Origin: an uncultured Candidatus Poseidoniales archaeon
GTDB lineage: Archaea; Thermoplasmatota; Poseidoniia; Poseidoniales; Poseidoniaceae
Assembly (NCBI GenBank): GCA_905182185.1
Contig: CAJJAP010000006.1
Location: forward strand, 1 to 32,282
Length of the DNA: 32,282 bases
Direction of reading: 5' to 3'
The translations under genes and the position numbers were made by a program. Below are positions 12,078 through 30,715 of this stretch, one piece after another. The notes beneath the pieces are model-generated. The model did no database searches. It was not told the DNA's origin and saw nothing but the letters and a program-made list of their open reading frames with translations. How positions within the stretch are numbered: the first letter of the stretch is position 1; every line of letters begins with the position of its first letter.

Positions 12078-12827
12078 ATGAAGGTAAAGGCAATTCTTGT
12101 GGCAGGTGGCCATGGCAATCGGTTATTTCCCTTTACAAAATATACTCAAAAAACACTATTACCATTATTTGAAAGACCGGTAATCGACTATGCATTAGGG
12201 ACTATTAGAAGGTCGGGAATTAAAGATATAACCATTATTTCAAATCAATTCATTGGCCAAATCGCAAAGCATGTAGGTACTGGCTTAGAAGACGAAAAGA
12301 TTCACTATGTGTTAGAAGAAACGCCCTCTGGTGTTGCTGCTGCATTGGAATTGGCAAGACCGCATAATGAAGATTGTAGATTGTTAATCTATTTCTCAGA
12401 TAATATCACAACTGTGGAACTGGCTGAAACAGTTGAACAATATATTTCATCAGAAAGTAACCCTGGGTGCGTATTATTGGCAAGAGAAGAGAAGAATCCG
12501 CAAGCATTTGGAGTCGCTGTTATGAGTGATGCCGGAAAAGTCATTGACATCGTAGAAAAGCCGACGAATCCTCCTTCAAATTTAGCCATTGGAGGAATCT
12601 ATCTATTCGATGAACGGTTTTGGGGTTTCTTTGACGAAGGGGTCGCTGAAATGGCTGAAGACTTCTCAATTTCTGATGTGACCCGTCGCTATGTCAAGGA
12701 TGGTAGCGCTACACTGTTGACTGTTGGAGAAGAAACATGGGTAGATTGCGGAACTGCAGAATCATTACTTCAAGCCTCGATTATGGCCAGAGATGGAAAA
12801 CTCAATCCTTCACCTCATCGCGAATAA
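12078..12827 (+). CDS. Sugar-phosphate nucleotidyltransferase (RmlA/GlmU-type)
   Basis: 249 residues. It opens with the nucleotide-binding signature 'AILVAGGHGNRLFPFTKYTQ' and 'KTLLPLFERPVIDYAL', the G-x-G-x-R-x(n)-K-P pattern of GT-A nucleotidyltransferases. 'LIYFSDNI' supplies the metal-binding Asp, and 'VIDIVEKPTNPPSNLAIGGI' is the sugar-binding EKP motif. 'TWVDCGTAESLLQA' is the usual C-terminal motif. The reaction joins a sugar 1-phosphate to an NTP to give an NDP-sugar. The sequence is closest in style to glucose-1-phosphate thymidylyltransferases, but base and sugar specificity cannot be read. With the following UDP-sugar dehydrogenase and GtrA-like gene it forms a precursor/transport group for surface glycans. 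Confidence 0.87.
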   Translation: MKVKAILVAGGHGNRLFPFTKYTQKTLLPLFERPVIDYALGTIRRSGIKDITIISNQFIGQIAKHVGTGLEDEKIHYVLEETPSGVAAALELARPHNEDCRLLIYFSDNITTVELAETVEQYISSESNPGCVLLAREEKNPQAFGVAVMSDAGKVIDIVEKPTNPPSNLAIGGIYLFDERFWGFFDEGVAEMAEDFSISDVTRRYVKDGSATLLTVGEETWVDCGTAESLLQASIMARDGKLNPSPHRE

Positions 12828-12899
12828 ACAGTTGCAGATTTATTGGCACATTATTCTGATTAATGATAAGGCATCTTAATCAAAGATGGAACCTCACAG

Positions 12900-13730
12900 G
12901 TGACTATGAAGGTCGGTATTATCGGTGCTGGAATGGTTGGCGGTGCTATTGAGCACTGTTTCAGACACGCTCATGAATTATTCATTCACGACCCTGCGAG
13001 AGGCACTACTCTCTCCGATGTCACCGATAATGTCAATATGGCATATATTGCAGTTCCAACTCCATCACACCCAGTAACTGGAGCGTGTGATACCTCTATC
13101 GTTGAGGGGATCTTGGATGAACTTCCTGATGGTTTCATCGCCGTTATCAAAAGTTCAATTGTTCCAGGGACTACACAGCAATATCACGAAAAATATAGCA
13201 ACTTGAAAATTGCCTATTCTCCTGAGTTTCTAGTTGAAAGGCAACGTCTTGAAGATTTTGCCAATCAAGATATTTTGGTTTGTGGGACCCATCATGAAGA
13301 TGTTGCTCAATTGGTATTTCAGCAACATCGAGAAGCTGGTGTACTACGTATAGACAATACATTTCAGGTAACTCCGACTCAAGCAGAATTAGTCAAATAT
13401 ACCAAAAATAGTTTCTATGCAGCCAAGGTTATTTTTGCCAATCAAATGTATGATATCTGTCAAGGCATGGGTGAAGATTGGTACCAGATTCGCGATATTA
13501 TTACCACTGAACAAGCACAACCAATCGGCCCATCTCACCTCGACCCTATCTTTGGATTAAACAGAGGATTCGGTGGCAAATGTCTGCCAAAAGACACACT
13601 AGCACTCGGTGTATTGGCTGAGAGTCTTGGAGTAAAATATGATCTAATGAATGCCCTCCAAACTGATAATCAACGACTCCGTGGAGTCTTAACAGGCAAG
13701 GAAAGCGATGTTGTTACCCTTGATGACTAA
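12900..13730 (+). CDS. Short UDP-glucose/GDP-mannose dehydrogenase family protein
   Basis: 276 residues, against about 430 for complete enzymes. The N-terminal NAD domain begins '[14 protein letters not shown]', then '[12 protein letters not shown]', '[12 protein letters not shown]' and '[16 protein letters not shown]'. The central helical domain keeps the catalytic lysine and asparagine in '[18 protein letters not shown]' (K166, N170) and the catalytic cysteine in '[11 protein letters not shown]' (C228). The C-terminal UDP-binding domain is absent, and the ORF ends with a clear stop. Such shortened versions are seen in marine archaeal and phage genomes; how they bind nucleotide is unclear. 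A second, similarly short member is at 29927-30715. Start is GTG at 12900 or ATG at 12906. Confidence 0.85.
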
Positions 13731-13768
13731 TTCAACAACTTGAAACAATCCAGCACTTCTCCGAGACT

Positions 13769-14197
13769 GTGGACAAGCGACTTGGGCAACAGGTTGTACC
13801 GCGCGGAACAATCCGCAGATTTACTGTTTCTGGAGGTTTTAACACACTGCTGTTTTGGCTGATTTGGGAATTTTTAATGCTCTTTTCACCATCACTGGGA
13901 ATTTCTAATACCTTCGCGTGGTCCATCGGCTGGTTCATTTCAAGTATTTCTGCACACTTTGTTCATCGATATTTTACATTCGATGGGCGCAAAGATGTTC
14001 GCCATACCGCCATTGGTGCATTATCGGTATATGCCTTTGGACTAGTCGGTTCTACATTGACTTTTGATTCATTGGTTATTCTGAGTGAACTGCCAATTAG
14101 GTTGATTTTCTTACTCAATGTATGTGCTTGGGGAATATTCACCTGGGGAATGATGAAGTGGATGGTTTTCGGATATATTGATGAAAGCGAAGAGTGA
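13769..14197 (+). CDS. GtrA-like family membrane protein
   Basis: 142 residues with four hydrophobic helices. The GtrA pattern is present: 'IRRFTVSGGFNTLLFWLIW' at the N-terminus, 'SIGWFISSISAHFVHRYFTF' in the middle, and 'NVCAWGIFTWGMMKWMVFGY' at the end. GtrA-like proteins are thought to move lipid-linked sugars across membranes or assist glycosyltransferases. The placement after nucleotidyltransferase and UDP-sugar dehydrogenase genes supports a role in surface-glycan assembly. The start is a GTG at 13769, 38 nt after the dehydrogenase stop. It converges with the glutaredoxin gene, 4 nt apart. Confidence 0.85.
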   Translation: MDKRLGQQVVPRGTIRRFTVSGGFNTLLFWLIWEFLMLFSPSLGISNTFAWSIGWFISSISAHFVHRYFTFDGRKDVRHTAIGALSVYAFGLVGSTLTFDSLVILSELPIRLIFLLNVCAWGIFTWGMMKWMVFGYIDESEE

Positions 14198-14534: not shown

Positions 14535-14628
14535 ACTAGTCGGCTCTCCCCATCACCCTTCAAGGTAGCCATTTTCCGTATATCATCGGGCGAGGGTTTG
14601 ATGGGGGAGAACAATTACGGAGGATTTG

Positions 14629-15060
14629 ATGCTACCCGACATCATTCACAAATTACCACGCGATGAACGCTTTGCATATGCGCGCTTACTTGCTTATATG
14701 ACTAGAGTTGACAATGAGTTGTCAGTTGCTGAAATGGCAATGTTTGAACAAAGACTCGGAAATGCTTTACTTTCACCAAAGCAAAGAGAAATGCTTCGTC
14801 TTTCATTAAAAAATCCACCAACTTTAGAATCCTGCCTCGAAGGCATGGGTGAAGAAGCGGGAAGACTCGCACTACGAGATTCGGTTCTAATGGCTGCTGC
14901 CGATGGCACAGTCGATGAAGATGAAAGAGAAATATTGGAAGAGATAGCAGCTCATTTTGGTCTAGTAGATGATGCAGTTGAACGATTATTACAATGGACC
15001 ATTGAAGGATATAATTGGATGGACTCTGGATTTGAGTTGCTAAACGGATTATCGGAGTGA
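14629..15060 (+). CDS. TerB-like domain protein (first of tandem pair)
   Basis: About 143 residues, all helical. 'ERFAYARLLAYMTRVDNELS' and 'LRDSVLMAAADGTVDEDERE' followed by 'ILEEIAAHFGL' match the TerB/DUF533 domain, where paired D-G/N-E motifs coordinate metal between helices. The ATG at 14629 is preceded by a GGAGGA Shine-Dalgarno-like stretch at 14619-14624, which decides the start over the TTG at 14626. It overlaps the next gene by 4 nt. Proteins of this family are linked to tellurite/stress response systems and to membrane-associated complexes, but no ter operon genes are here, so function is unassigned. Confidence 0.75.
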   Translation: MLPDIIHKLPRDERFAYARLLAYMTRVDNELSVAEMAMFEQRLGNALLSPKQREMLRLSLKNPPTLESCLEGMGEEAGRLALRDSVLMAAADGTVDEDEREILEEIAAHFGLVDDAVERLLQWTIEGYNWMDSGFELLNGLSE

Positions 15061-15488
15061 ACTACTTGTTTACTGACCCATTAGGTGATTGCTCACCTGG
15101 TGATAAAAGAATATATGCATCAATTTTAGTTTTAGTCGCTTCTGCTGATGGTGAGTTAGTTCGAGAAGAGTTTTGTGCCATAGAAGCCCTAATGGGGCGA
15201 ATTCTAATTCATCCTGAAGCGCGGATTGATATCAGCAATCTCATAAATGACCCTCCGGATCTAGAAGAATTGCTTATCACAATAGATTCTTCTCTAATCA
15301 AATTTGTATTGAGAGATGCTGCATTGGTTGCTGCTGTTGATGGAGACTATGATGCTGCGGAATTGAAAGTGATAAAACGACTGGCAACTGCTGCTGGAGT
15401 AAAGGATAATACTCTCAAAGAAATCTTTGATTGGGTCAACTCCGGACTGGCATGGCATCATCAAAGTTTGGATATCCTTGGTTTATAA
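15057..15488 (+). CDS. TerB-like domain protein (second of tandem pair)
   Basis: 143 residues. It starts at a GTG overlapping the previous stop (GTGA), a sign of translational coupling. 'RIYASILVLVASADGELVRE' and 'LRDAALVAAVDGDYDAAELK' parallel the upstream protein's motifs at the same spacing, and both end with a tryptophan-containing helix ('WTIEGYNWMDSG' versus 'WVNSGLAWHHQS'). The two are clear tandem paralogues. Acidic D-G pairs could bind a metal ion. A heterodimer is a plausible inference. Function not assigned. Confidence 0.75.
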   Translation: MNYLFTDPLGDCSPGDKRIYASILVLVASADGELVREEFCAIEALMGRILIHPEARIDISNLINDPPDLEELLITIDSSLIKFVLRDAALVAAVDGDYDAAELKVIKRLATAAGVKDNTLKEIFDWVNSGLAWHHQSLDILGL

Positions 15489-15544: not shown

Positions 15545-17575
15545 TTGAAACGGCAAAAGCCAGCCCGCTGGCTTGGTGGAGTCATGCAGAGCGGTGTGAG
15601 CGGCTGGTACGCGAGATTGGACAGGTGTCTATCCGACAGACCTACTCAGGTTGAAATTTGGTTGAATGCTTGGGAGAATTCTCTTCGTAATCACCAACCT
15701 ATTGCTGCAATCTTACCAAAAGACTGGCCAACACTTCCGGCTAATTTACTGACTGATCCTGGCCATGTATTAGACCACCTTTTAGCAAGGCATGATGCTG
15801 AATCTGATGGCCGCTCCCCACGTGGCGCACATCCAACACCACCTCGTCTTGCCGATGCGGTCATCGCTTCGGAATTACATGAAACATTAACTCGACCAAA
15901 AGCTCCGGTAAAATCCACAAGTATGCAGATTAACAATTTGCCACCAGGATTTAGACAACATATTGAACAACTCAATCTACCACAGCACTCTCAAGAAAAT
16001 GAAGTTGATGATGAAACTGAAATGAGTGCGGTTAACAATGGAATTAGAACACTCAGCGGAGTGCCGCTACCGATAGCAGATACTGCTTGTGGTGGAGGAT
16101 TATTCCATGCACGAGTTATTCGAAGACATGCGGAAGCACACGAGGATGGAAACCCGCAAACCAAAATTGACGATACTAGGACATTACTTTCTTCTTTCCA
16201 AATTATTGACATTGACGATTTGGTAGTCGCCTCTACCCGCCGCCGATTATTACTAGAAGCAATCCGCTTCAATTTGGTTTGTCTTGAAGGGGAACGTGAA
16301 GGATGTTTAACCCGTTCAGAAGCTGAACAAATCCTTGAGCATTCTGTGAAGCAAGGCGATACATTACAGGGTGAATGGCCTTGGCAAATCGCACCGAAGT
16401 TAGTCGTCACCAATCCACCATGGTTACGAATAAAGGACAGGTTTAGAGGAATGGAAGATGGTTCACAACTGAGAAAGGAACTCGGTGAACAACTTCGCTC
16501 AATCGGTGATGAAAACGGTCCACGATTCTCTACAATGAGGGGAAATGTCAACTTGTATCGCCTATTTATTGAGCGAAGTTTACAAATTCTTGAAGTTGGA
16601 GGACGCCTAAGATTAATTGCTCCTGATAGTTTATTGCGAGAACAATCTTCTCATCCATTGCGCCAATTACTAGTTGAAAAGCATGGATGGAGTGATGTTT
16701 GGGCAGTTGAAGAAGCGAACCATCTATTCCCCGGCATGACTCAGGGAGTTGTGGTTTTAGGAATTACTGCAAAACAATCCTTGGATTCACTTGTGGTAAG
16801 AGGTCCAATTAGCCGTTCCGACTTAGGCCGTGATAATGGAGGATTATCAAACCGCGTTCCATCTTTTGAAATGGAAACACAGCGATGGAAGAATTGGGCA
16901 AGAGGTACATGGGCTATTCCAAGATTACCGCGCGACAGAATTGAGAGAAAGCATACACTAAAAATTCTAGACCGACTAGCAAAACTACCACGTCTAGGTG
17001 ATGACGATCACTATCTAGCAACCAATGGCCACTGCGTTAGAGTACGAGTGGGGGAAATCGACCAAACTTCACACGTCAAAAAAATCGATACTTGGGTCAA
17101 GGGTCGGAGAAACAGACCTTTCATCAGAGGAGTTCATTTTTGTGAAGATGAGGATGGTTCAATATTCATCCGCCATCCTGCATTTAGGACCGATATCCCA
17201 TCACGAGCAAACGAGCGGCAATTAGCAATGTGGATCGGTGAATCAAACCAGCGCTATGGCGTTCGTATCGCTTGTCAAGCAATTGTCAACGCTCACCAAG
17301 ATAGACGCTTGCGCTGGGCAGTAATCTCCGATGGTTGTGTTCTGGGCAACAGTGTTAACCACATTGAATTACATCCCGATATCAAGCAATTCCTAACTGA
17401 AAAGCATGGTTCTTTAGAAACTGCATTGCATTGGTTATGTGAATTATTGAATGAGAATTCTTTAGATGAGTGGGCTCGTGCTTGGAGTGCCAACAACAAC
17501 GTCAATAATTATGAATTGGAAATGCTTCCTCTCGCTATTGAAGTTGCGCCGGAAATCGGAACTATAAGGGCATAA
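15545..17575 (+). CDS. Orphan adenine-specific DNA methyltransferase (Eco57I/type IIG-like)
   Basis: 676 residues from a TTG at 15545; an in-frame ATG is at 15584. SAM motif I is 'IADTACGGGLFHARVI' (about 177-192), with an acidic motif II region 'FQIIDIDDLVVAS'. Catalytic motif IV is N290-P-P-W293 in 'LVVTNPPWLRIKDRF', as in N6-adenine methyltransferases. 'LQILEVGGRLRLIAPDSLL' is the following strand-helix unit. The roughly 300-residue C-terminal part would hold target recognition. I see no PD-(D/E)XK nuclease motif in the N-terminal 150 residues and no restriction gene nearby. It may therefore be a solitary regulatory or housekeeping methylase, or a self-protection enzyme. The N-terminus is uncertain: another frame from the ATG at 15535 gives a plausible short start. 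Confidence 0.85.
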   Translation: MKRQKPARWLGGVMQSGVSGWYARLDRCLSDRPTQVEIWLNAWENSLRNHQPIAAILPKDWPTLPANLLTDPGHVLDHLLARHDAESDGRSPRGAHPTPPRLADAVIASELHETLTRPKAPVKSTSMQINNLPPGFRQHIEQLNLPQHSQENEVDDETEMSAVNNGIRTLSGVPLPIADTACGGGLFHARVIRRHAEAHEDGNPQTKIDDTRTLLSSFQIIDIDDLVVASTRRRLLLEAIRFNLVCLEGEREGCLTRSEAEQILEHSVKQGDTLQGEWPWQIAPKLVVTNPPWLRIKDRFRGMEDGSQLRKELGEQLRSIGDENGPRFSTMRGNVNLYRLFIERSLQILEVGGRLRLIAPDSLLREQSSHPLRQLLVEKHGWSDVWAVEEANHLFPGMTQGVVVLGITAKQSLDSLVVRGPISRSDLGRDNGGLSNRVPSFEMETQRWKNWARGTWAIPRLPRDRIERKHTLKILDRLAKLPRLGDDDHYLATNGHCVRVRVGEIDQTSHVKKIDTWVKGRRNRPFIRGVHFCEDEDGSIFIRHPAFRTDIPSRANERQLAMWIGESNQRYGVRIACQAIVNAHQDRRLRWAVISDGCVLGNSVNHIELHPDIKQFLTEKHGSLETALHWLCELLNENSLDEWARAWSANNNVNNYELEMLPLAIEVAPEIGTIRA

Positions 17576-19671: not shown

Positions 19672-20532
19672 TTATTGTAATCTTTGAATCAACCAATCTC
19701 TCAATTCTTGATTCATATCAGGTCGGCGTAGAGCATGGTCTATCTGTGATTTCAACCAAGGTAGTGGCGACCCTGAATCATACCATTGATAGCCATCTAG
19801 CAGTACTCCAACCAATCCGCAGTTATCCATCCAGTGTTGTTGAATCGCGATAGATTGTAATTCTCCATGGGTTGCCAAATCATAATGATGGAGCAACTCT
19901 GAAAAGTCTTCTGTGAAAATATATCTACCACATAAAACTAGATTTGATGGGGCATCTGCTTTATTCGGTTTTTCAACTATTGAAGTGATATGTTGACCAT
20001 CCATTTCAACAACTCCATAATTGCTTACTTCATCATCAGCAACTCTGACAAGCCCTACACATGGTAGATTATTTGCAGCATAGCAATCAACCAATTCAGC
20101 GCTGGCATTAGATGGACTATAATCGCTGGCAGTAGTGTGATTATTCATCAATAGGTTATCACCTAGTAGCACCAAAAATGGACCACTTATTGATGCTGTG
20201 GCTGCTGATATCGCATTAGCTAATCCAAGTGCCTGGTGTTGAATATGGACCAATACCTCTACATCGTTAAATGGAGAGAGGACTATTGGATCTAAGTCAC
20301 TTCTTTTATCGAGTAACCACGAATTATCTGCAAGTAGTGCTGATAAATCCTTACGCGGTGAAGTAATGATGTGCAATCTCTTTGCTCCTGCTGCAACTGC
20401 CTCTCTGGCAAGATGCGTTAGAACTGGGATGTCGACTAGTGGCAAGGCTTCCTTAGCGATGCTTGCACTTGCGGGTAACATCCGAGTACCAAGGCCACCG
20501 GCGACCAAAATCGCATCCAAAACCTCCGCCAT
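19672..20532 (-). CDS. UTP--glucose-1-phosphate uridylyltransferase-like protein (GalU type)
   Basis: 286 residues from the ATG at 20532; the frame extends to 20598 but would then run over the start of the divergent gene. 'AILVAGGLGTRMLPASASIA', 'KEALPLVDIPVLTHLAREAV', 'FLVLLGDNLLM' (metal Asp) and 'ITSIVEKPNKADAPSNLVLC' are the GalU/RmlA signatures, and 'WYDSGSPLPWLKSQI' closes the fold. The K-E-A/M-L-P version is typical of UDP-glucose pyrophosphorylases. Its product, UDP-glucose, would be the substrate of the UDP-sugar dehydrogenases in this window, though the genes are not adjacent. Confidence 0.83.
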   Translation of the reverse strand: MAEVLDAILVAGGLGTRMLPASASIAKEALPLVDIPVLTHLAREAVAAGAKRLHIITSPRKDLSALLADNSWLLDKRSDLDPIVLSPFNDVEVLVHIQHQALGLANAISAATASISGPFLVLLGDNLLMNNHTTASDYSPSNASAELVDCYAANNLPCVGLVRVADDEVSNYGVVEMDGQHITSIVEKPNKADAPSNLVLCGRYIFTEDFSELLHHYDLATHGELQSIAIQQHWMDNCGLVGVLLDGYQWYDSGSPLPWLKSQIDHALRRPDMNQELRDWLIQRLQ

Positions 20533-20583
20533 ATCACCACTATGATGCCACAGGCTTTCAAGCCTAAGCCCTTCAGCAGTATT

Positions 20584-21003
20584 ATGCAGCCAAATCAAGA
20601 GGCAAAGATATTCGGTATTTTCGGATTGTTGCTAGTTGTGCAAACATTCCTTGATGTTGCTCCCGCAGGTCCATGGGATTCTCGTTCATTTAGTAGAGGT
20701 GTTATCGGATTATTAGGCCTGTTGCTACTATATTTCTCTTGGTTTCGATTTACCTTTGACAAAAAAGGAGTTGCTCCTGTAGTAAAACTTTGGAAAAATC
20801 CAAAATCTTCTTCAACAACTGTAATTGTGTTTGGTTTTATTTGTTTAGTATTTACTAAATTCATAATCAATTCCAAAATCGGAGAATCATTTCCACAAAC
20901 TACTGGATTAATTATTACGTTCATTGGACTACTTGCAATTGCAAATGGAACCTATGTTTGGTTGATTAGCGCAGGCCCATTAGCGGTAGATGAAGAAGAA
21001 TAA
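20584..21003 (+). CDS. Small multi-pass membrane protein
   Basis: About 139 residues from the ATG at 20584 (an ATG at 20542 is also in frame). Four hydrophobic helices are visible: 'FGIFGLLLVVQTFLDVA', 'GVIGLLGLLLLYFSWFRF', 'TTVIVFGFICLVFTKFI' and 'GLIITFIGLLAIANGTYVWL'. The C-terminus is acidic. No family recognised. It is divergent from the GalU-type gene with only about 50 nt between starts, and convergent with the HEAT-repeat gene (stops adjacent at 21003/21004). Confidence 0.6.
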   Translation: MQPNQEAKIFGIFGLLLVVQTFLDVAPAGPWDSRSFSRGVIGLLGLLLLYFSWFRFTFDKKGVAPVVKLWKNPKSSSTTVIVFGFICLVFTKFIINSKIGESFPQTTGLIITFIGLLAIANGTYVWLISAGPLAVDEEE

Positions 21004-23421: not shown

Positions 23422-23775
23422 TTTAATCCCGCCTCCCCACGATGAACGCAATGTCCAACTTGCAGGGTAATAGTAATTCAACCCCCCAGCGTGGCATACT
23501 TAAACCCTACGCCGGCATAGTCTAATAGTCGTAATGGTGAAACATGGCGCAGTTGCCCGAATAACTATTCCAATACTACAAAAGTGTTGATTTAAGATTT
23601 AAATTTCGCCGAGTTCAAACATATTTCTTTACATAGTTAATTAAAAAAAACTCAATCTGATTCAAAATTACCGTTTTTTGGAAAAATATTAGCATAATAT
23701 TCGGGGATAGGTCTGTGTTTGGGCGAGTTCCGAACCCGTTATACCTACACCGCACTTGAGATAGTTTGGGGGAGA
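23422..23775. promoter_or_regulatory. Divergent intergenic region between TFB and dehydratase genes
   Basis: About 350 nt with no supported gene. On the minus strand a TATA-like box TTTAAGTA lies at 23497-23504, about 80 nt from the TFB start, preceded by G-rich bases that could be a BRE. The middle (23590-23700) is strongly AT-rich, with an A8 run near 23643 and 'ATATTAGCATAATAT' near 23686-23700, and probably contains the promoter of the plus-strand dehydratase. A GGGGGAGA stretch just before the ATG at 23776 looks like a ribosome binding site and favours that start over the upstream TTG at 23719. Confidence 0.45.
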
Positions 23776-24276
23776 ATGATGCGAGGTGAATGGCCAACAA
23801 ATGAAATCTCTCTCACCGAGGGAAAAAGAGTACTATTTTTGACCAAGGATTTAGATCTAATCCGTAAACAACTATACCATGGTTTAGATTTGAAAATGGA
23901 AGATTTGCGCATTGAAGATCTACTCGATGACATCAATACCGATGTTATGACTCCTGCATGGGTTTGTTTTGACCACGACCCCGTTGAAATTGCCAAAAAT
24001 GCTTATGCGGGATTAATGCATAATGGATTGAGGGTATTCAATGAAAATGCACTAAAGAATGGGAATTTTGAAGTTATTGTTTCTGGTCAACGCAAAGGTA
24101 CTGGCTCTAGTAGAGAAACAGCACCTCAATGTGAACGCTGGTCTGGAATAAATATCGTAATTGCGGCATCATTCGCCCCTATTCACGAAAGAAATAACAT
24201 CAATCTAGGTCAACTAATGGGAGACCATGATAATGCTAACACGCTTGCAGAACGGAGAGAGCATCGCTCTATCTGA
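23776..24276 (+). CDS. Aconitase/3-isopropylmalate dehydratase, swivel (LeuD-like) part
   Basis: About 166 residues from the ATG at 23776; the frame is open from a TTG at 23719. The swivel domain is clear: 'DDINTDVMTPAWVCFDHDP', 'GQRKGTGSSRETAPQCERW' (the substrate-binding GSSRE motif) and 'ASFAPIHERNNINLGQL'. After about 24225 this frame turns into unlike sequence ('ANTLAERREHRSI'), while the expected continuation ('MLTRLQNGESIALSEF') is in the next frame, that of the large part starting at 24227. Deleting one A around 24232-24233 joins them. I read this as the N-terminal half of a fused LeuD-LeuC-type enzyme split by a 1-nt indel. The alternative is two translationally overlapping genes (50-nt overlap). 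Confidence 0.8.
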   Translation: MMRGEWPTNEISLTEGKRVLFLTKDLDLIRKQLYHGLDLKMEDLRIEDLLDDINTDVMTPAWVCFDHDPVEIAKNAYAGLMHNGLRVFNENALKNGNFEVIVSGQRKGTGSSRETAPQCERWSGINIVIAASFAPIHERNNINLGQLMGDHDNANTLAERREHRSI

Positions 24277-25768
24277 GTTCACTGATAGATATGACCCTGT
24301 AACAAAAATAATTCTAGAGCGGGGTGGATTATTTGCTTTCGCAAAGGCGATGAAGGCTGGTGAAATTTCATTGCCGCCAATCAATACACCTACCCGTCCA
24401 ATGACTATGGCAGAGAAAATCATTGCCCGCAATTTGGTCGGACAAGATGTTGACCAATGCGTCAAACCACATGACCCAGTAATTGCCCAAGTACAAGGTG
24501 GATATTCTCACGAATTCACTACTGCCCAAGTTCATAATTTCCTTATCGAAGAATATGGAGAAGATTATAGTTTGTTAAATCCAACTAAATTTGCAGTCTT
24601 CGAAGACCACTTACTCTACGCTCACCATAATCCAAAATTCGTCCCACATATGGCAAAGGTTCAGGTTCTACGGGATTTGCAAATTGAGTTTCAACAGCAT
24701 ACTGGTGTCCGAGATTATTCGGCCAAGGATGGAGTTTCTCCTGGAATTTGTCACCAAGTAGCAAGAGAAGAATTTATCGAAGTTGCAGATTTCATCCAAG
24801 CCACTGACTCCCACACTTGCATGGGTGGTGCATCTAATGCCCTTACTTGGGGTGTTGGTTCAACCGAATACGCTAACCTAGTTAGTGCAGGATTTACTTT
24901 CGTAAAAGTCCCTGAATCAATCCGATTTGAATTGGTGGGCACTCTAAACAATGGATGCACTGCTAAAGATATTATTCTCTATATTTTATCCGACCATGCT
25001 CGCGAAGAATTAACTCTTAACCGTAGCATGGAGTTTGGTGGCTCTGGTCTCACTTCAATCTCAGCTGATGAGAGAGCGACTCTTTGTAACATGGCTACAG
25101 AATGCTCCGCAAGAACTGGAATATGTGAAGCGGATGACATACTGTATGATTGGATGCTAAAAACTCAACCACATCTTGATATTGAAGTCATGAAAAGTCG
25201 TGCTGTTGCTCCGGATGAAGGCGCAGAGTATACCGGTGGAGTCCACGTTATCAATCTCTCAGAAATTGTACCGATGGTCGCACACCCGGGTAATCCAGAT
25301 GAGGGAATCCCAAGCGACCCGACAAATGGCGCCAATATTACTGATATTGGACAAGTCGAAATTAACATCGCTTATGGTGGCTCGTGTACTGCTGGAAAAG
25401 AAGACGATATTGCTTACTATGCCTTGGTTTGCCAAGCGGCAGAAGATGCTGGTTTAACCGTCAAAGATGGGGTTGAATTCTATATCCAATATGGCTCGGG
25501 AATCGTAAAAGAAATGGCTGTGCAAAGAGGATGGCATGCCTTATTTGGACGGGTAGGAATCAATTTGATCGACCCTGGTTGTGGTGCTTGTATTGGCGCA
25601 GGACCTGGCGTTTCTATCAACCAAGAACAAGTCACTGTTTCAGCGATTAATCGTAATTTCCAAGGTCGTTCTGGGCCAGGGAGATTATACTTGGCTAGCC
25701 CATTAACAGTAGCAGCATCGGCATTCACAGGCGTAATAACCGCATGGAATGATGATTTGTTCAATTGA
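24227..25768 (+). CDS. Aconitase/3-isopropylmalate dehydratase, catalytic (LeuC-like) part
   Basis: 513 residues. [4Fe-4S] cluster ligands are in 'ATDSHTCMGGASNALTWGVG' and in the C-x-x-C of 'DPGCGACIGAGPG'. Other aconitase-superfamily motifs are 'EFGGSGLTSISADERATLCN' and the substrate-loop 'YGGSCTAGKEDDIAYYA', where most isopropylmalate dehydratases have GSCTN. Termination uses 'GRLYLASPLTVAASAFTG'. The first 70 residues ('MLTRLQNGESIALSEF', 'PPINTPTRPMTMAEKI') read as the linker from the swivel domain, supporting the fusion. The enzyme would isomerise 2-isopropylmalate or a related hydroxyacid by dehydration/hydration. Its partner could be the LeuB-like protein at 8254-9438. Substrate not certain. 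Confidence 0.87.
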   Translation: MIMLTRLQNGESIALSEFTDRYDPVTKIILERGGLFAFAKAMKAGEISLPPINTPTRPMTMAEKIIARNLVGQDVDQCVKPHDPVIAQVQGGYSHEFTTAQVHNFLIEEYGEDYSLLNPTKFAVFEDHLLYAHHNPKFVPHMAKVQVLRDLQIEFQQHTGVRDYSAKDGVSPGICHQVAREEFIEVADFIQATDSHTCMGGASNALTWGVGSTEYANLVSAGFTFVKVPESIRFELVGTLNNGCTAKDIILYILSDHAREELTLNRSMEFGGSGLTSISADERATLCNMATECSARTGICEADDILYDWMLKTQPHLDIEVMKSRAVAPDEGAEYTGGVHVINLSEIVPMVAHPGNPDEGIPSDPTNGANITDIGQVEINIAYGGSCTAGKEDDIAYYALVCQAAEDAGLTVKDGVEFYIQYGSGIVKEMAVQRGWHALFGRVGINLIDPGCGACIGAGPGVSINQEQVTVSAINRNFQGRSGPGRLYLASPLTVAASAFTGVITAWNDDLFN

Positions 25769-25898: not shown

Positions 25899-26484
25899 TC
25901 ATTCAGGAATCCCACGATGCCTTTTCTTGAACTTTGGAAGAACATCTTGTAATTTTGAACGGATCTCTTCGACGCTATTGCAGGGAAACACAATATCTTC
26001 AAGCACAGCGTCATCTAACCTCTTGCGATTATCTACAACCTGCCCAGCAATCTTTGAACTCCATCCCTCAACAGATGTTGCGAGTATGGGTCTTTTGAAT
26101 TGCCATGCGTATGCGATTTCACTTAAGGTCCCAGCACCACCACCAACTGCAATTACAGCATCAGAATTTGCTACAATTGCATTTCTACTAACATCTAACC
26201 CAGTTGAATGATAATATCTGCATGATTATAAGCGGGTTTTGGGTCAAAACCTGGCAATATGGCGATTGTATCTGCTTCCGTAGAGTTTGATGCAGATTTG
26301 GCTCCGCGATGAGCAGCGGATGGCAGAAGACCCAAACCCCCTGTGACTATTCTGTGACCCTCTTCAACAAGCATTCTAGAAATATCTTCGACCAAAATTT
26401 GCGCTTCTTGGTCAATATCTCGTCCCCCAAGATAGCAATTTGAAATCGGTAACTCAATTCTCCCCCTCCGGCTATTCCATTCAT
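25899..26484 (-). pseudogene. TIGR00725/LOG-like Rossmann-fold protein, two frameshifts
   Basis: Three frames join into about 195 residues. Key segments: 'QIAILGGRDIDQEAQILVED', 'MLVEEGHRIVTGGLGLLPSA', 'IAILPGFDPKP', 'ADIIISTGLDVSRNAIV', 'DAVIAVGGGAGTLSEIAYAW' and a tail ending 'KKRHRGIPE'. The GGGxGTLSE motif and the order of strands match the TIGR00725 branch of the LOG/SLOG nucleotide-binding fold. One G appears missing from the G5 run near 26430 and one T from the TT near 26205; restoring both makes the length divisible by three. No substitution-type stop is seen, so sequencing error is likelier than true decay. Ligand and reaction are unknown for this branch. Last gene of a minus-strand cluster, 32 nt after the methyltransferase domain. 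Confidence 0.72.
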
Positions 26485-26575
26485 TGTTTCAGTGTTTAGT
26501 TATTGGCTTCAGACAATCAATTTTTTGTGAATTCTAATCCTAAGTATTCATGTATTGGAGTGCAATCATCTACAT

Positions 26576-26791
26576 TTACTCCTGGCGAATGAAATTCTCG
26601 GTTCGTGTAAGGCCAACTAATGATGCCATTCTTTCTATGAAACTCTGTGACCTAGTGTGTTCAACGCGATTCCTACCTGTCGACCTCACTGTTTTGTTGT
26701 ATGTAATTTTGTCATTCGCAAGTGACAATTGTGGTCTTTGAATTGTTGTTGTACAGATTATATTTACACTATCTGGATGACAAACAGTCAC
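26576..26791 (-). CDS. Open segment: SAM-methyltransferase C-terminal part
   Basis: Fragment of the large gene. 'VTVCHPDSVNI' is the strand after the GG turn of the methyltransferase, and 'VEHTRSQSFIERMASLVGLT' is the final helix before the last strands. After a frameshift near 26590 the chain ends 'FHSPGVNVDDCTPIHEYLGL' and stops at 26517. Confidence 0.5.
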   Translation of the reverse strand: MTVCHPDSVNIICTTTIQRPQLSLANDKITYNKTVRSTGRNRVEHTRSQSFIERMASLVGLTRTENFIRQE

Positions 26792-26877
26792 ATTGCATGA
26801 CCTCCCTGTTCTAAAGAATCGGAGATAATTTTCAAGACCTCCAAGGCCTCTTCATCACTTTCGATATCACACAAAAA

Positions 26878-27306
26878 CTAAATTGCAGATTGCAAGGAGT
26901 ATTCGCCTTCTTTCACATCATTAGGACCGTTTATCCAATTCACTAGGGGGTGCGCTGTGACTTTCTTTTTTAGCTCAACATTCGGATCATAAGCATCAAT
27001 AGTGTATCCTAAATCAGCTATTTGTTTGGTCAATCTCCCACTTCCGCACCCCCAATCTAGAACTTCACCAGAATAATTTTCACCCAAGAGTTCGATGAAC
27101 CACGGGTCATGTAAATCTGATTTATCTTGAATTTCAATTGCGCTTCTGAAGGTTTCAATACCCTCTAATTCAGGGAAGTGATGAGGTTCTGTATCTCTCA
27201 GTGATCGGGTAAGAAGTTCACGAAGATTTGTTTTATCCCAATTCTTCCAACACAAGTATGCTTTTCTCACCATACTATCCCAATCATCATCACCGTAGAT
27301 TTTCAA
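26878..27306 (-). CDS. Open segment: kinase C-terminus and SAM-methyltransferase N-terminal half
   Basis: 142 residues of the large gene. Residues 1-50 complete the kinase C-lobe ('DDDWDSMVRKAYLCWKNWDK'). Residues about 70-125 are the SAM-binding half of a class I methyltransferase, 'EVLDWGCGSGRLTKQIADLG' with the acidic motif II residue in 'YTIDAYDPN'. After two nearby indels (about 26905 and 26885) the chain continues 'NLVLCDIESDEEALEVLKII' and 'DSLEQGGHA', motif IV and V of the fold. Confidence 0.68.
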   Translation of the reverse strand: MKIYGDDDWDSMVRKAYLCWKNWDKTNLRELLTRSLRDTEPHHFPELEGIETFRSAIEIQDKSDLHDPWFIELLGENYSGEVLDWGCGSGRLTKQIADLGYTIDAYDPNVELKKKVTAHPLVNWINGPNDVKEGEYSLQSAI

Positions 27307-27524
27307 ATCCCTGCAATATCGATTATGACCAATCTATGATCTGGTGTTAGGATTAGATTTTGCGGCTTCAAATCCCAATAAACGAATTTGTTTTCCTTGC
27401 ATTCCCGAAGCAAATCTAACCATGGACCTACATTTGTTTCAAAATTTGGATGTTCTCCCTCGACCCAATCGTAAGAAATTATAGTCGGCTCAGAATATTG
27501 TAACTTGAAATTATTCGCAGACAA
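27303..27524 (-). CDS. Open segment: kinase-like catalytic loop
   Basis: 73-residue fragment of the large gene with the kinase catalytic core: 'YWDLKPQNLIL' matches the H-R-D-L-K-P-x-N loop, with W in place of the usual HR pair, and 'LVIIDIAG' stands where the metal-binding D-F-G is expected. 'YDWVEGEHPNFETNVGPWLD' precedes it as the hinge and helix D region. Missing one G near 27307 separates it from 26878-27306. Confidence 0.65.
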   Translation of the reverse strand: MSANNFKLQYSEPTIISYDWVEGEHPNFETNVGPWLDLLRECKENKFVYWDLKPQNLILTPDHRLVIIDIAGI

Positions 27525-27606
27525 GACACAGATTTAGCAGAGAGTTCTTCCATTAAATTGAGAGCCTCATTGTTAAATTGAACATTCTCATGATGAACTT
27601 TAATCG

Positions 27607-28077
27607 CTAAATCGTCTTTCTGAATACAACTCCTTCAGAAACCATCTCCACGAATCTCAAATCTGTATAGCCTAAATTATGAAGTTTTACAACCGCTTCA
27701 GAGATTCTGTATCGTGGACGAATATTTGGTTGGGCAGATCTAAATCGAGACATATGTGCTGGCATTTCAGTGAAGATTCTTTCAACCTCAGTCTCAATAT
27801 TTCTTGCCATTTTTGAGTGAAAAAACTCCTTAGCGATTTCAAGGGTTGAGGATTCATGTTCTAGATGGTGCTCCAATGCAGAAACACGATAAAGACTCGA
27901 AATCAATCTGGATTCTCGTAATTTAGAATCCATGACTACATTTTCTGAAAATTCTTTCACCCAAGCTCCATCATCCCACAATGTGCGATTCATTTCCATG
28001 TTGTTGAAGGAGAATATCTGGATAATTGCGCATAATCTTACTGCAAATGATGTCACCTCGAATATTGTCAACATCAT
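27607..28077 (-). CDS. Open segment: helical linker and start of kinase-like domain
   Basis: Fragment of the large gene. From about residue 25 ('NMEMNRTLWDDGAWVKEF') it is helical and charged ('LREAR'-like 'LRESRLISSLYRVSALEHHL', 'FTEMPAHMSRFRSAQPNIRP'). It ends with 'LHNLGYTDLRFVEMVSEGVV', a glycine-containing strand pair fitting a kinase N-lobe. After a frameshift near 27615 the N-lobe lysine strand 'DDLAIKVHHENVQF' follows. Confidence 0.55.
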   Translation of the reverse strand: MMLTIFEVTSFAVRLCAIIQIFSFNNMEMNRTLWDDGAWVKEFSENVVMDSKLRESRLISSLYRVSALEHHLEHESSTLEIAKEFFHSKMARNIETEVERIFTEMPAHMSRFRSAQPNIRPRYRISEAVVKLHNLGYTDLRFVEMVSEGVVFRKTI

Positions 28078-28249
28078 GTTTCAAAATTGGGGAATTCTTT
28101 CGCTCTTGCGGGACTGCAAAAGGCAACCAAGCCACTTTCCGTTCTTCCTTTCCAACTGTTTTGCCTCTAATTCTTTGAGCGTATAGAGACCAAATCGAAT
28201 CCCCCCTTCTCGTCTGAATACTCGAAATCAATGGAGCCATATGGACCAT
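27971..28249 (-). CDS. Open segment: RRGDSIW motif region of second GT-like module
   Basis: Fragment of the large gene. Real sequence runs from about 'TRRGDSIWSLYAQRIRGKTV' through 'VAWLPFAVPQERKNSPILKH' to 'DIICSKIMRNYPDIL'. The first 12 and last 10 or so residues of this frame are out of frame. It links the GT-like module to the helical segment at 27607-28077. Confidence 0.5.
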   Translation of the reverse strand: MVHMAPLISSIQTRRGDSIWSLYAQRIRGKTVGKEERKVAWLPFAVPQERKNSPILKHDVDNIRGDIICSKIMRNYPDILLQQHGNESHIVG

Positions 28250-28358
28250 TCGGATAGGATGTTGGGTCTAACACGATTGTATTGCCCCCCCTAATGAGCA
28301 AATCTTCATCGATCGTTGCGCCAGTCAGAATGTACTGGCCTAGAACTGAATTTTCCAC
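28167..28358 (-). CDS. Open segment: end of second GT-like module
   Basis: Fragment of the large gene. The authentic part is 'DEDLLIRGGNTIVLDPTSYP' to about 'YGSIDFEYS'. The first residues shown by this frame and the last ('FDLVSIRSKN') are out of frame. The true flanks are 'HSDWRNDR' before and 'TRRGDSIWSLYAQ' after, in neighbouring frames. Confidence 0.5.
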   Translation of the reverse strand: MENSVLGQYILTGATIDEDLLIRGGNTIVLDPTSYPNGPYGSIDFEYSDEKGGFDLVSIRSKN

Positions 28359-28466
28359 TTTCGATTAATCTTAATGCTTCGCTATTATTCGATTTCAGAT
28401 TGAATAGTCCCCACGGGAATTCGAGATGATCAAATCTTGATGTCGAAAGGTCATGATGTATGTCAT

Positions 28467-29540
28467 TCAGATTTCTAGACCCCACTTTATTCGTAGAAAA
28501 CCTGATTTTTCCATCATCCTCGAATAATGTAAGTCCAACATTTGTGTCCTCAATGTGAATAATGGGTGAATGGGAGGATCACCAATCACATGCCCAATCC
28601 CAACATCAATTCCAAATTTCTCCATATGCCAGACTGTCTGCAAAAATGCGTCAAACCCTTTGCAGTTAGGGTCACTTGAATTACACAGATGTAGTTGCAT
28701 ATCTTCATCCAAAATCCAAATCAATGGACGATTGTCATTTCCAATTTGATCTAAAGTTTTACGATGTAAGACACATCTACCCCATGATACCCCTGTTCGA
28801 TATTTTTCATTCGAAAACCAAGGTCCCAATCCTCCCATATTTGCAAGTTCTGTGGCTGACTTTTCATCATAAATAATGATTTCAAGAGTGGTCAGATTTG
28901 CTTTCTGAAATATACTATCAATTTCGCTTGGGTTGATTTTGTGAAGGCAAGCCACTAATCTCGTCCTATGAGGCCATTTTGGGATGATTTTCTTGAGTGA
29001 ATCAACGAATTTTTCTGCTAAACCTAAATCGCTAAATGTAACACCTATCGTTAGATCATAATGCTCAATTCCCCCCTCAAAATGTGGATTCTCTGTACCT
29101 CTTTCTTTCGATAAACCTGTTACCGTGTGTGAATCAAGTTGGTCCAATTCTATTCCGAATCTCTCTTTAGTGACCTGAAGGAATTCATCCCACTGTTCTT
29201 CAGCCATTCGAAATTGATGTTTCATCGCAAACCGTTGGATTCCCTGGGTTTTCCTCTTAGAATTAGAGTCCGAAATACGACCCGATTTTCGAGCATCATG
29301 GTGCACAAGGTGCTGATTAAGTCGTTTCCAATGATGATTTTTATTTTCAAAAAGACGGATACAAAAATCTCTGTCAGTACATGAGAGAATCGATTCATCG
29401 AACCCTCCAGCTGCAAGGAATGAGTCCATTCTAACAAATAGGTTGGAACCTTGAATGTGTGGATTTTTTATTAGAAAAGAATCACATTGAAGTTCTATTA
29501 GGCACGGATAAATTGAATCCTTCAGGATTTGATAGATCAT
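28467..29540 (-). CDS. Open segment: GT2 C-terminal half plus second GT-like module
   Basis: 357 residues, the longest uninterrupted piece of the large gene. The acceptor side of the GT2 domain is 'AAGGFDESILSCTDRDFCIR' and 'LNQHLVHHDARKSGR'. A second alpha/beta module then begins ('YDLTIGVTFSDLGLAEKFVD', 'LVACLHKINPSEIDSIFQK') and contains 'PLIWILDEDMQL', which resembles a DxD-type metal site. The frame ends at 'IKWGLEI'; the alternative frame goes on with 'SRNLNDIHHDLSTSRFDHLE'. The apparent ATG at 29540 is an artefact of the frameshift. Confidence 0.72.
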   Translation of the reverse strand: MIYQILKDSIYPCLIELQCDSFLIKNPHIQGSNLFVRMDSFLAAGGFDESILSCTDRDFCIRLFENKNHHWKRLNQHLVHHDARKSGRISDSNSKRKTQGIQRFAMKHQFRMAEEQWDEFLQVTKERFGIELDQLDSHTVTGLSKERGTENPHFEGGIEHYDLTIGVTFSDLGLAEKFVDSLKKIIPKWPHRTRLVACLHKINPSEIDSIFQKANLTTLEIIIYDEKSATELANMGGLGPWFSNEKYRTGVSWGRCVLHRKTLDQIGNDNRPLIWILDEDMQLHLCNSSDPNCKGFDAFLQTVWHMEKFGIDVGIGHVIGDPPIHPLFTLRTQMLDLHYSRMMEKSGFLRIKWGLEI

Positions 29541-29922
29541 ATCGGGTTAATCCTGCCACCACCTGATGGCATTGTTCATCGACAAGCGAAACACATTTTT
29601 CTAAATATTCGGCGTCCCACCAATCATCGTCATCCAGAAGTGCCAACCATGTAGAATCAAGCTCGATTTTCCAATCATGCCGATTCAGTATGATTTCATC
29701 AATCGCATGATTAATCGCTCCACTCAACGACTTTGTTCGCTTGTTTATTGTGGCATGTATATTATTTCCAGAGAGTAAGTGTGGATAATCGTCTTCTTTT
29801 TCATGAACAATAAGAATACGATCAGCGGGACGACTTTGATTTGAAATTGAGTCAAACGCTCTATTGAAATCACCGTTTCTTTTGTGAGTTGGAATAATGG
29901 CGATAATCTTCAAGATAACCAC
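29482..29922 (-). CDS. Open segment: GT2 glycosyltransferase N-terminal half
   Basis: 146 residues of the larger reconstructed gene. The GT-A nucleotide-sugar fold starts 'IIAIIPTHKRNGDFNRAFDS' and reaches the metal-binding acidic motif 'ALLDDDDWWDAEYLEK'. The frame ends artificially at 'SVPNRTSM'; the next frame continues with 'DSFLIKNPHIQGSNLF'. Family 2 enzymes transfer a sugar from an NDP-sugar to an acceptor. Removing one A near 29485 joins it to 28467-29540. Confidence 0.75.
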   Translation of the reverse strand: MVILKIIAIIPTHKRNGDFNRAFDSISNQSRPADRILIVHEKEDDYPHLLSGNNIHATINKRTKSLSGAINHAIDEIILNRHDWKIELDSTWLALLDDDDWWDAEYLEKCVSLVDEQCHQVVAGLTRYDLSNPEGFNLSVPNRTSM

Positions 29923-29926
29923 TCAC

Positions 29927-30715
29927 TCATCCGTCATTTGATTCAAATTCCTGAGTTTCAACTGCTTCTTTACTCCCTCTCTCTTCCAGTATTTTCAAGA
30001 TTGAATTAGGGTCAATATCGACTGAAGACAGGGCAGCAGTATCCTTCGGCACACCATTTCCCATCAAAACCGCCCAATCCAGGAGTTAGGTGGGCTGAGT
30101 TCCGAACCCTTCTATCCGTCCAAACAGATTCCATAACCGGATATGGGTCCACGCCGATTCTTTCGCTATACGCTCAATTTCACAAGTGAATGTTACCTTT
30201 GTGGCAATATAAGCATTGTGGGCTAATTTCCCTAATTCCGCTTCAAGGTGATTTCATACGAAGTCGGGGGATAGAATCTGGAACCCAATCGAAACAACTC
30301 AACGCGATTTCCATATCTTCTTGTCCACCACTGATGACAATTCGATCCGGATCTGCGAACCATTCTACTGCATCCTTTTCCCTTAGAAATTCGGGCATAT
30401 ATGCAAGCCGAAGACTAGGGTGCTTGGAATTGATCTTGTCCATAGTGCCAGGATGTAGGGTGCTTTTTACCACCACCAAACCACAGTATTCATCCTCTGA
30501 CAACTTGCTACATACAGCAATTACATTGCTCATATCCAATGTTGAATCTTCTGAGGCATCCGTATTGACACATACAAATGTCAATTCAGATATGAGAGAA
30601 CATCTTGCCAATTCCCTCTTCCGTCTATATCATATCCACTTACTTCATGGAATTCGGCCAAACCCAATTCTGCAGCTTTACCAACTGATCCTAAACCAAT
30701 GATTGAAATTTTCAA
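29927..30715 (-). pseudogene. Second short UDP-sugar dehydrogenase, three frameshifts
   Basis: Reading across three frames gives about 263 residues: 'LKISIIGLGSVGKAAELGLA' (NAD-binding), 'LTFVCVNTDASEDSTLD', 'GLVVVKSTLHPGTM', 'LAYMPEFLREKDAVEWFADP', 'EAELGKLAHNAYIATKVTFT' (catalytic Lys and Asn), 'RIGVDPYPVMESVWTD' and 'TPGLGGFDGKCVPKDTAALS' (catalytic Cys). It is as short as the protein at 12900-13730 and also lacks the C-terminal UDP-binding domain. Joints are near 30600, 30245 and 30160. The likely start is a TTG at 30715 with GGAGGG at 30721-30726, 5 nt upstream. All active-site residues are intact, so sequence error is likelier than decay. First gene of the minus-strand island cluster; its UDP-sugar-acid product could feed the adjacent glycosyltransferase. 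Confidence 0.72.

Follow-up and report, generated by a model that had tools for sequence, protein, structure and literature searches.

A single collinear chain of glycosyltransferase, kinase-like and methyltransferase modules was confirmed to be encoded on the minus strand of the stretch of DNA analyzed here, which comprises 32,282 nucleotides from an uncultured Candidatus Poseidoniales archaeon (assembly GCA_905182185.1, contig CAJJAP010000006.1, positions 1 to 32,282) and is referred to as the window. The corresponding fusion gene (26517..29922), consisting of two glycosyltransferase modules (GT) followed by a protein-kinase-like domain and an S-adenosylmethionine (SAM) methyltransferase, runs from position 29922 to position 26517, where the chain ends, and was reconstructed from 13 pieces based on motifs, alignment and profile match. 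A preceding sequence-only reading of this DNA had proposed one polypeptide with glycosyltransferase(s), a kinase-like module and a SAM methyltransferase, which is borne out by the sequence; the product length it had given as roughly 1135 residues was measured at approximately 1,160 residues. The presence of TFIIB supports an archaeal source, and the data point to the phylum to which Ferroplasma belongs.

Evidence for One Collinear Chain

The joined pieces were compared with a profile of seven relatives containing no window row and yielded a single alignment covering profile positions 3-1186 of 1198 with an E-value of 1.6e-164 (501 sequences). None of 500 shuffled versions of the joined chain was reported at E<=10. 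Among the unjoined six-frame pieces of the window, 6 of 704 matched the same profile at E<=0.01, all of them minus-strand pieces of the fusion region that follow each other in collinear order. Furthermore, a profile of five relatives matched the fusion region at 2.6e-22.

All three module boundaries were found within uninterrupted reading frames, namely 29546-28470 for the transition between the two glycosyltransferases, 27978-27610 (residues 669-791) for that between the glycosyltransferase tail and the kinase-like domain, and 27333-26881 for that between the kinase-like domain and the methyltransferase. Since each boundary lies inside one open frame, the fusion is independent of the joining of pieces, and the earlier statement that no start region intervenes between the modules holds. 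In the joined protein, the alignment with the glycosyltransferase tail of L035 extends to residue 739, and that with the kinase-methyltransferase of L032 begins at residue 775, both positions lying within 27978-27610; this piece by itself did not reach an E-value of 0.01 against the seven-relative profile. The four motifs quoted in the sequence-only reading were recovered on the same (minus) strand in the claimed order. Its description of the gene as interrupted only by small frame slips applies to 11 of the 12 piece boundaries, which are frame changes, but not to the remaining one, an in-frame TAG within the methyltransferase.

Modules of the Chain

Module 1 (29060..29922, minus strand; inner boundary approximate, set by eye) represents a glycosyltransferase of family 2 carrying the motif ALLDDDDWWDAE. 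The Pfam family Glycos_transf_2 (PF00535) was matched on 29922-29482 with an E-value of 1.1e-10 and 42.1 bits, passing the cut-off of 23.3, and the DDDD of this module is invariant across eight aligned rows. In the PDB it is most similar to a probable GlcNAc transferase (1.1e-5), followed by a glucosyltransferase (1.4e-5). Module 2 (28336..29060, minus strand; boundaries approximate, set by eye) is a second glycosyltransferase-like domain with the motif WILDEDMQL, collinear with the relatives. It is followed by a conserved tail of the double glycosyltransferase without family name (27693..28336, minus strand), which was delimited by alignment and the L035 match mentioned above, and of which the piece 28267-27974 matched profile positions 582-663.

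Module 3 (27160..27693, minus strand) is a protein-kinase-like domain, assigned by Pfam and a 15-row profile. It contains both the catalytic loop (YWDLKPQN, in which WDLKPQN corresponds to D..PxN) and the metal-binding Asp in IIDIA. The Pfam Pkinase match on 27524-27303 (0.008; 16 bits) fails its cut-off of 31.7. The 15-row profile (A7), in which the window row is included, matched the eukaryotic-type kinases CDKL2, CDKL5, CDK5 and Aurora in the PDB at approximately 1e-6 to 1e-5; pentatricopeptide chains outranked the kinases in this search, yet no stretch of them passed alone. All 15 kinase rows share the metal-binding Asn and Asp, and the catalytic-loop Asp is present in five, namely the window, L032, L077, L078 and L079.

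Module 4 (26517..27160, minus strand), which contains the in-frame TAG, is a class I SAM methyltransferase with the motif VLDWGCGSGR. Methyltransf_23 (PF13489) was matched on 27306-26878 with an E-value of 9.8e-7 and 29.1 bits (cut-off 27, passed), including motif I as DWGCGSG. In the kinase and METHYLTRANSFERASE part of the chain, the methyltransferase profile of the relatives matched ordinary class I methyltransferases in the PDB. A hydrophobic stretch able to span a membrane was not found in the window composite.

Relatives and Distribution of the Fusion

The sequence-only reading had called for a search for intact homologues, and single-frame relatives of 1,716-1,739 amino acids were indeed found (L084, 1721; L085, 1737; L088, 1723; L089, 1716; L090, 1739 amino acids). 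Moreover, L087 encodes a fusion of 1630 amino acids with a short N terminus, L086 one of at least 1272 amino acids running to the contig end, and in Ferroplasma acidarmanus Fer1 (L091) the fusion gene is broken once and occupies two frames. The arrangement, for which the sequence-only reading knew of no description in planktonic archaea, is not unique: at least eight named archaeal loci carry it, this number being a lower bound obtained from a pattern scan. Hosts of the single-frame relatives are metagenome-assembled genomes (MAGs) of Thermoplasmata and Methanomicrobiales, one of them a Methanogenium MAG; the L088 protein belongs to Methanomicrobiales, and an intact gene is also present in UBA447. 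In the tree, the eight named loci are labeled Thermoplasmatota and Methanobacteriota, and the family therefore spans phyla. No description of the arrangement was found among the titles and abstract beginnings listed in searches of open-licence literature.

Beyond the methyltransferase, the relatives possess a further region of approximately 520 residues, which is fully matched in seven of the eight named loci and in L086 for 60 residues before the contig end; the window showed no match to it. Judging from DxD-type motifs, we read this region as two putative further glycosyltransferase modules. In whole proteins, Pfam assigned two Glycos_transf_2 stretches to L072, two to L088 and one to L090. 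A scan of seven fusions for membrane-spanning segments revealed only one borderline stretch, located inside the methyltransferase of L084.

Split arrangements also occur. In L032, a gene for a SLOG-kinase-methyltransferase adjoins the double-glycosyltransferase gene, and in L033 the double glycosyltransferase is fused to a polysaccharide deacetylase, with separate adjoining methyltransferase and SLOG genes. Kinase-like and glycosyltransferase modules were furthermore observed in combination with radical SAM modules (one with SPASM) or histidine-phosphatase modules in L038, L077, L078 and L079, related gene sets with strong module shuffling.

The fusion is rarely encountered. Among 389 sampled genomes of the phylum, six matched the five-relative kinase-methyltransferase profile at E<=1e-15. 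Three of these (G000, G370 and G227) contain the fusion, which is broken in G000 and G227, the kinase and methyltransferase of the latter being spread over two frames; the others encode a SLOG-kinase-methyltransferase (G179), a methyltransferase only (G240) and a kinase only (G415). Within the window's own family, three of 170 genomes (G000, G041 and G001) matched an eight-row profile at E<=1e-6; in G041 the kinase part resides in a 1206-amino-acid frame together with radical SAM, and the match in G001 is confined to the methyltransferase part. Of 350 genomes from the class to which G370 belongs, six have kinase and methyltransferase in a shared frame (G370, G630, G614, G492, G649 and G687). 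Methyltransferase matches alone were not accepted as evidence of family membership; 224 of the 350 genomes would then match, mostly weakly via the methyltransferase part. The distribution is read as that of a patchily inherited operon. A phage or viral origin was likewise dismissed, as no relative was detected in phage records, with the L030 protein as query, or in two scans of viral contigs.

Partner Genes and Genomic Neighborhood

The window locus was shown to comprise three same-strand genes of an archaeal set that is rare and patchy in its distribution. Upstream of the fusion gene, a short UDP-glucose/GDP-mannose dehydrogenase-like gene (29932..30712, minus strand) extends over several frames and matches TIGR03026 at 2.9e-16, under the model's own cut-off. 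It shares 36-59% identity with the L030 gene, in which Pfam detected only the N-terminal and central domains, and one of its pieces in the window hits AglM with 1e-11, again under the cut-off. Downstream, a SLOG cluster-4 (LOG-like) gene (25902..26476, minus strand), occupying more than one frame, was assigned by homology to the L072 SLOG gene (48-49% identity, 4e-40); the SLOG relatives in L032 and L033 belong to PF18306 with 128-137 bits.

Both partners, which the sequence-only reading had not mentioned, recur next to the fusion. The dehydrogenase-like gene is present at seven of the eight named loci (absent from L089) and the SLOG gene at six (the contig ends in L086, and L091 has none), where such absences apply to the compared stretch only, flank lengths varying among loci. 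An NYN-nuclease-like gene was found at four (L086, L087, L089 and L091). Intervening genes encode NYN in L087 and a histidine-phosphatase-like protein in L090. A radical SAM gene lies near the fusion in L087, and an ABC-ATPase-like gene follows the SLOG gene in L085, no systematic search for exporters having been made. According to mechanically derived coordinates of open reading frames, neighboring genes overlap by four bases, at one boundary or several, in L084, L085, L087 and L090.

The left edge of the site is formed by a core aconitase-family gene (23719..25768, plus strand) with one frame slip. Twelve genus relatives were compared next to the same aconitase gene, considering frames of at least 100 amino acids. 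One of their contigs ends 77 bases on; in the other 11, the operon was not seen within the compared 1.2-1.9 kb (four relatives) or 2.9-12 kb (the rest). Gene content downstream of aconitase varies among these genus relatives (L109-L120), several contigs ending nearby; the site is a variable one.

Comparison with WbdD and Other Known Systems

The O-antigen terminator WbdD of E. coli O9a is, in the passages considered of its published description (PMC3482155), composed of a methyltransferase (residues 1-210), a kinase said to be of eukaryotic type (211-459) and a C-terminal domain with a predicted coiled coil (460-708). The likeness consists in a single chain that combines a eukaryotic-type kinase with a SAM methyltransferase in a setting of glycan assembly. 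Relative to this account, the order of the two modules is reversed, as the sequence-only reading had anticipated: the kinase precedes the methyltransferase in the window and its relatives, whereas the methyltransferase comes first in WbdD. Fused glycosyltransferases, present in the window chain, do not figure in the passages on WbdD considered here (PMC3482155). Moreover, WbdD, as described there, continues past both domains, whereas the window chain stops right after the methyltransferase, and the relatives carry a glycosyltransferase-containing region where WbdD has its coiled-coil domain. WbdD was not among the 28 PDB rows to E 1e-3 for alignment A5, nor among the best 60 of 129 rows for A4 or the best 60 of 1333 for A7. 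The comparison with WbdD is thus to be taken as an apparent analogy of parts.

Through module 1, the chain also resembles bacterial chondroitin synthase (2z86/2z87) and other family 2 glycan enzymes in the PDB, the similarity to chondroitin synthase being weak (7e-4, with no single stretch passing alone). Chondroitin synthase is not known to contain kinase or methyltransferase modules. A further likeness concerns the double-glycosyltransferase proteins L034-L037 of the window's own family (770-808 amino acids), whose GT-GT chain is homologous to that of the window fusion, and a related Pseudoalteromonas plasmid protein of 1116 amino acids. They differ in that the archaeal double glycosyltransferases lack a kinase-methyltransferase match (L034), whereas the plasmid protein has its kinase-like domain between two glycosyltransferases, shows no methyltransferase match and is partnered by RibA, an asparagine-synthase-related protein and an N-acetyltransferase. 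In archaea of the window's family as well as on the Pseudoalteromonas donghaensis plasmid, the double-glycosyltransferase gene is accompanied by GTP-cyclohydrolase-II-like, asparagine-synthase-like and arylamine-N-acetyltransferase-like neighbors. This shared gene set was located on contig C5 of G000 (L034, 3173-9655), in L036, L037 and, in part, L035, and in L082 (11932-18454); the archaeal genes were named after their annotated counterparts on the plasmid, with which they share approximately 42-58% identity.

Proposed Function and Alternative Explanations

Taken as a whole, the three-gene set with its fusion is best explained, with slightly more confidence than doubt, as encoding a cytosolic assembly-line enzyme, represented in the window by a broken copy. 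The fusion protein would carry out successive sugar additions to one acceptor; proteins, small molecules and lipids facing the membrane surface are candidates for it. The product would be decorated by methylation of a sugar or phosphate, and members that retain the catalytic Asp, such as the window copy, might also phosphorylate it. The dehydrogenase-like partner may supply or oxidize a sugar, and the SLOG protein may act on a nucleotide-derived precursor. The suggestion of the sequence-only reading that the protein extends a surface polysaccharide and caps it with a methylated phosphate found no support: the window composite has no membrane-spanning stretch, WbdD was missing among the PDB matches listed, and most kinase rows, though not the window, carry Asn at the catalytic position. 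Capping by a methyl-phosphate is a guess.

Several observations weigh against this reading. Asn replaces the catalytic Asp in 10 of the 15 kinase rows, among them all seven large fusions aligned, and the glycine loop of the window kinase is poor (EMVSEG instead of GxGxEG); because of these features, kinase activity may be absent. For module 2 (piece 29540-28467), Pfam returned no PF00535 row, and PF10111 reached 12.1 bits at a cut-off of 27.3. Part of the C-terminal region of the relatives has no Pfam match, and a phmmer search with this region of L088 against the PDB yielded only a chance-like periplakin row (0.0085). Furthermore, breaks are concentrated in the fusion gene relative to the approximately 21 kb that flank it, the branch of the window row is very long (3.14) in a tree built from the double-glycosyltransferase region, and homopolymers at the 11 frame changes average 3.64 versus 3.27 at random, a value as high being reached in 0.123 of 2000 draws.

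Among the rival explanations, it appears unlikely that the protein acts as a WbdD-like terminator, in which the kinase would phosphorylate the glycan end and the methyltransferase would methylate the phosphate, whereupon growth would stop. The presence of a kinase and a methyltransferase on one chain and the eukaryotic type of the kinase, both as reported for WbdD in the excerpt cited above, are consistent with such a role, as is the catalytic Asp retained in the window. The reversed module order, the end of the window chain directly after the methyltransferase, the absence of WbdD among the PDB matches listed and the Asn at the catalytic position in most kinase rows argue against it. This substitution would rather fit a pseudokinase that, in the majority of members, serves in binding or regulation, combined with a methyltransferase acting on the sugar itself, e.g., a hexuronic acid. 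The AglP protein of Haloferax methylates a hexuronic acid. The dehydrogenase-like partner at seven of the eight named loci, the AglM score (under cut-off) of its window copy and the kinase-like domain kept by the Pseudoalteromonas plasmid relative without a methyltransferase match point in the same direction. However, the window and four other rows retain the catalytic Asp. Sugar methylation with a pseudokinase is regarded as rather doubtful.

Similarly doubtful is the assumption that the product of the three-gene set is no surface glycan but a soluble glyco-nucleotide or small molecule, either resembling an antibiotic or linked to defence. The lack of membrane-spanning stretches in the window composite and in six of the seven fusions scanned (L084 being borderline) would be in line with a soluble product, as would the SLOG gene, the NYN-nuclease-like gene nearby at four of the eight named loci, the patchy distribution and the GT-kinase-GT protein encoded beside RibA, asparagine-synthase-related and N-acetyltransferase genes on the Pseudoalteromonas plasmid. 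A PADLOC scan of six proteins, however, gave partial rows only for four of them (ShosA, mad2, NYN and pVip; 6e-10 to 4e-5) and none for two, and relatives were missing from phage records and viral contigs, which speaks against this assumption. A known defence system was rejected as a candidate, the PADLOC rows being partial only. Finally, a set of several separate adjacent genes is precedented by L032, with its GT-GT gene beside a SLOG-kinase-methyltransferase gene, and by L033, in which methyltransferase and SLOG genes are distinct; for the window, it is very improbable, as no module boundary coincides with a break in frame and the profile aligns without interruption.

Going beyond the cytosolic assembly-line enzyme, it is conceivable, although not favored, that a horizontally moving, hitherto unrecognized archaeal assembly line is represented here, comprising a giant soluble protein with a kinase or pseudokinase, a methyltransferase and up to four glycosyltransferase-like modules (by motifs), assisted by a SLOG protein and a sugar-nucleotide dehydrogenase of reduced length, and possibly leading to a new class of methylated, perhaps phosphorylated glycoconjugate. 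In archaeal glycan pathways, most enzymes have a single domain, act one after another and are often bound to the membrane. The multi-module chain described here is soluble and recurs together with its partners under patchy inheritance. Since single-frame genes exist in the Methanogenium MAG and in Thermoplasmata, the chain is directly testable, and its expression might uncover a new archaeal glycoconjugate and the way in which a single chain arranges its steps.

State of the Window Copy

Decay and poor local coverage are about equally likely as origins of the breaks in the window; the copy may be recently decayed or misassembled. For a recently decayed pseudogene, an explanation given even weight, speak the 11 frame changes and one in-frame stop within 3.4 kb of the fusion gene, compared with one certain coding slip and up to three doubtful ones at frame edges in the flanking 21 kb or so, as judged against genus relatives, the fact that both partner genes are also broken, the long branch of the window row and the lack of homopolymer enrichment at the frame changes. 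Moreover, an open frame of 241 amino acids at the contig end speaks against contig-end noise. On the other hand, just one stop occurs alongside the 11 frame changes. Of 53 positions within the first 485 residues that do not vary among ten other family rows, 43 are preserved in the window (eight changed, two gaps), and the intact outlier L032 preserves 43 of 51 in this comparison, so that conserved residues are retained equally well in both. The core gene aconitase on the same contig, in which the certain flanking slip resides, is likewise affected, being split in the window and 662 amino acids long in genus relatives. Homopolymers as the cause of the breaks were unsupported with the in-frame stop left out; the corresponding value was 0.0375 when the stop was included.

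Other Loci in the Window

A second sugar locus was observed at 12078-14197, comprising genes for a nucleotidyltransferase, another dehydrogenase-like frame limited to the N-terminal and central domains and a GtrA-like protein, with a GalU-like gene further on (19672-20598). Moreover, the window harbors two adjoining TerB-like genes (14626-15488) and a gene for an Eco57I/Alw26I-like adenine-specific DNA methyltransferase of 676 amino acids (15545-17575).

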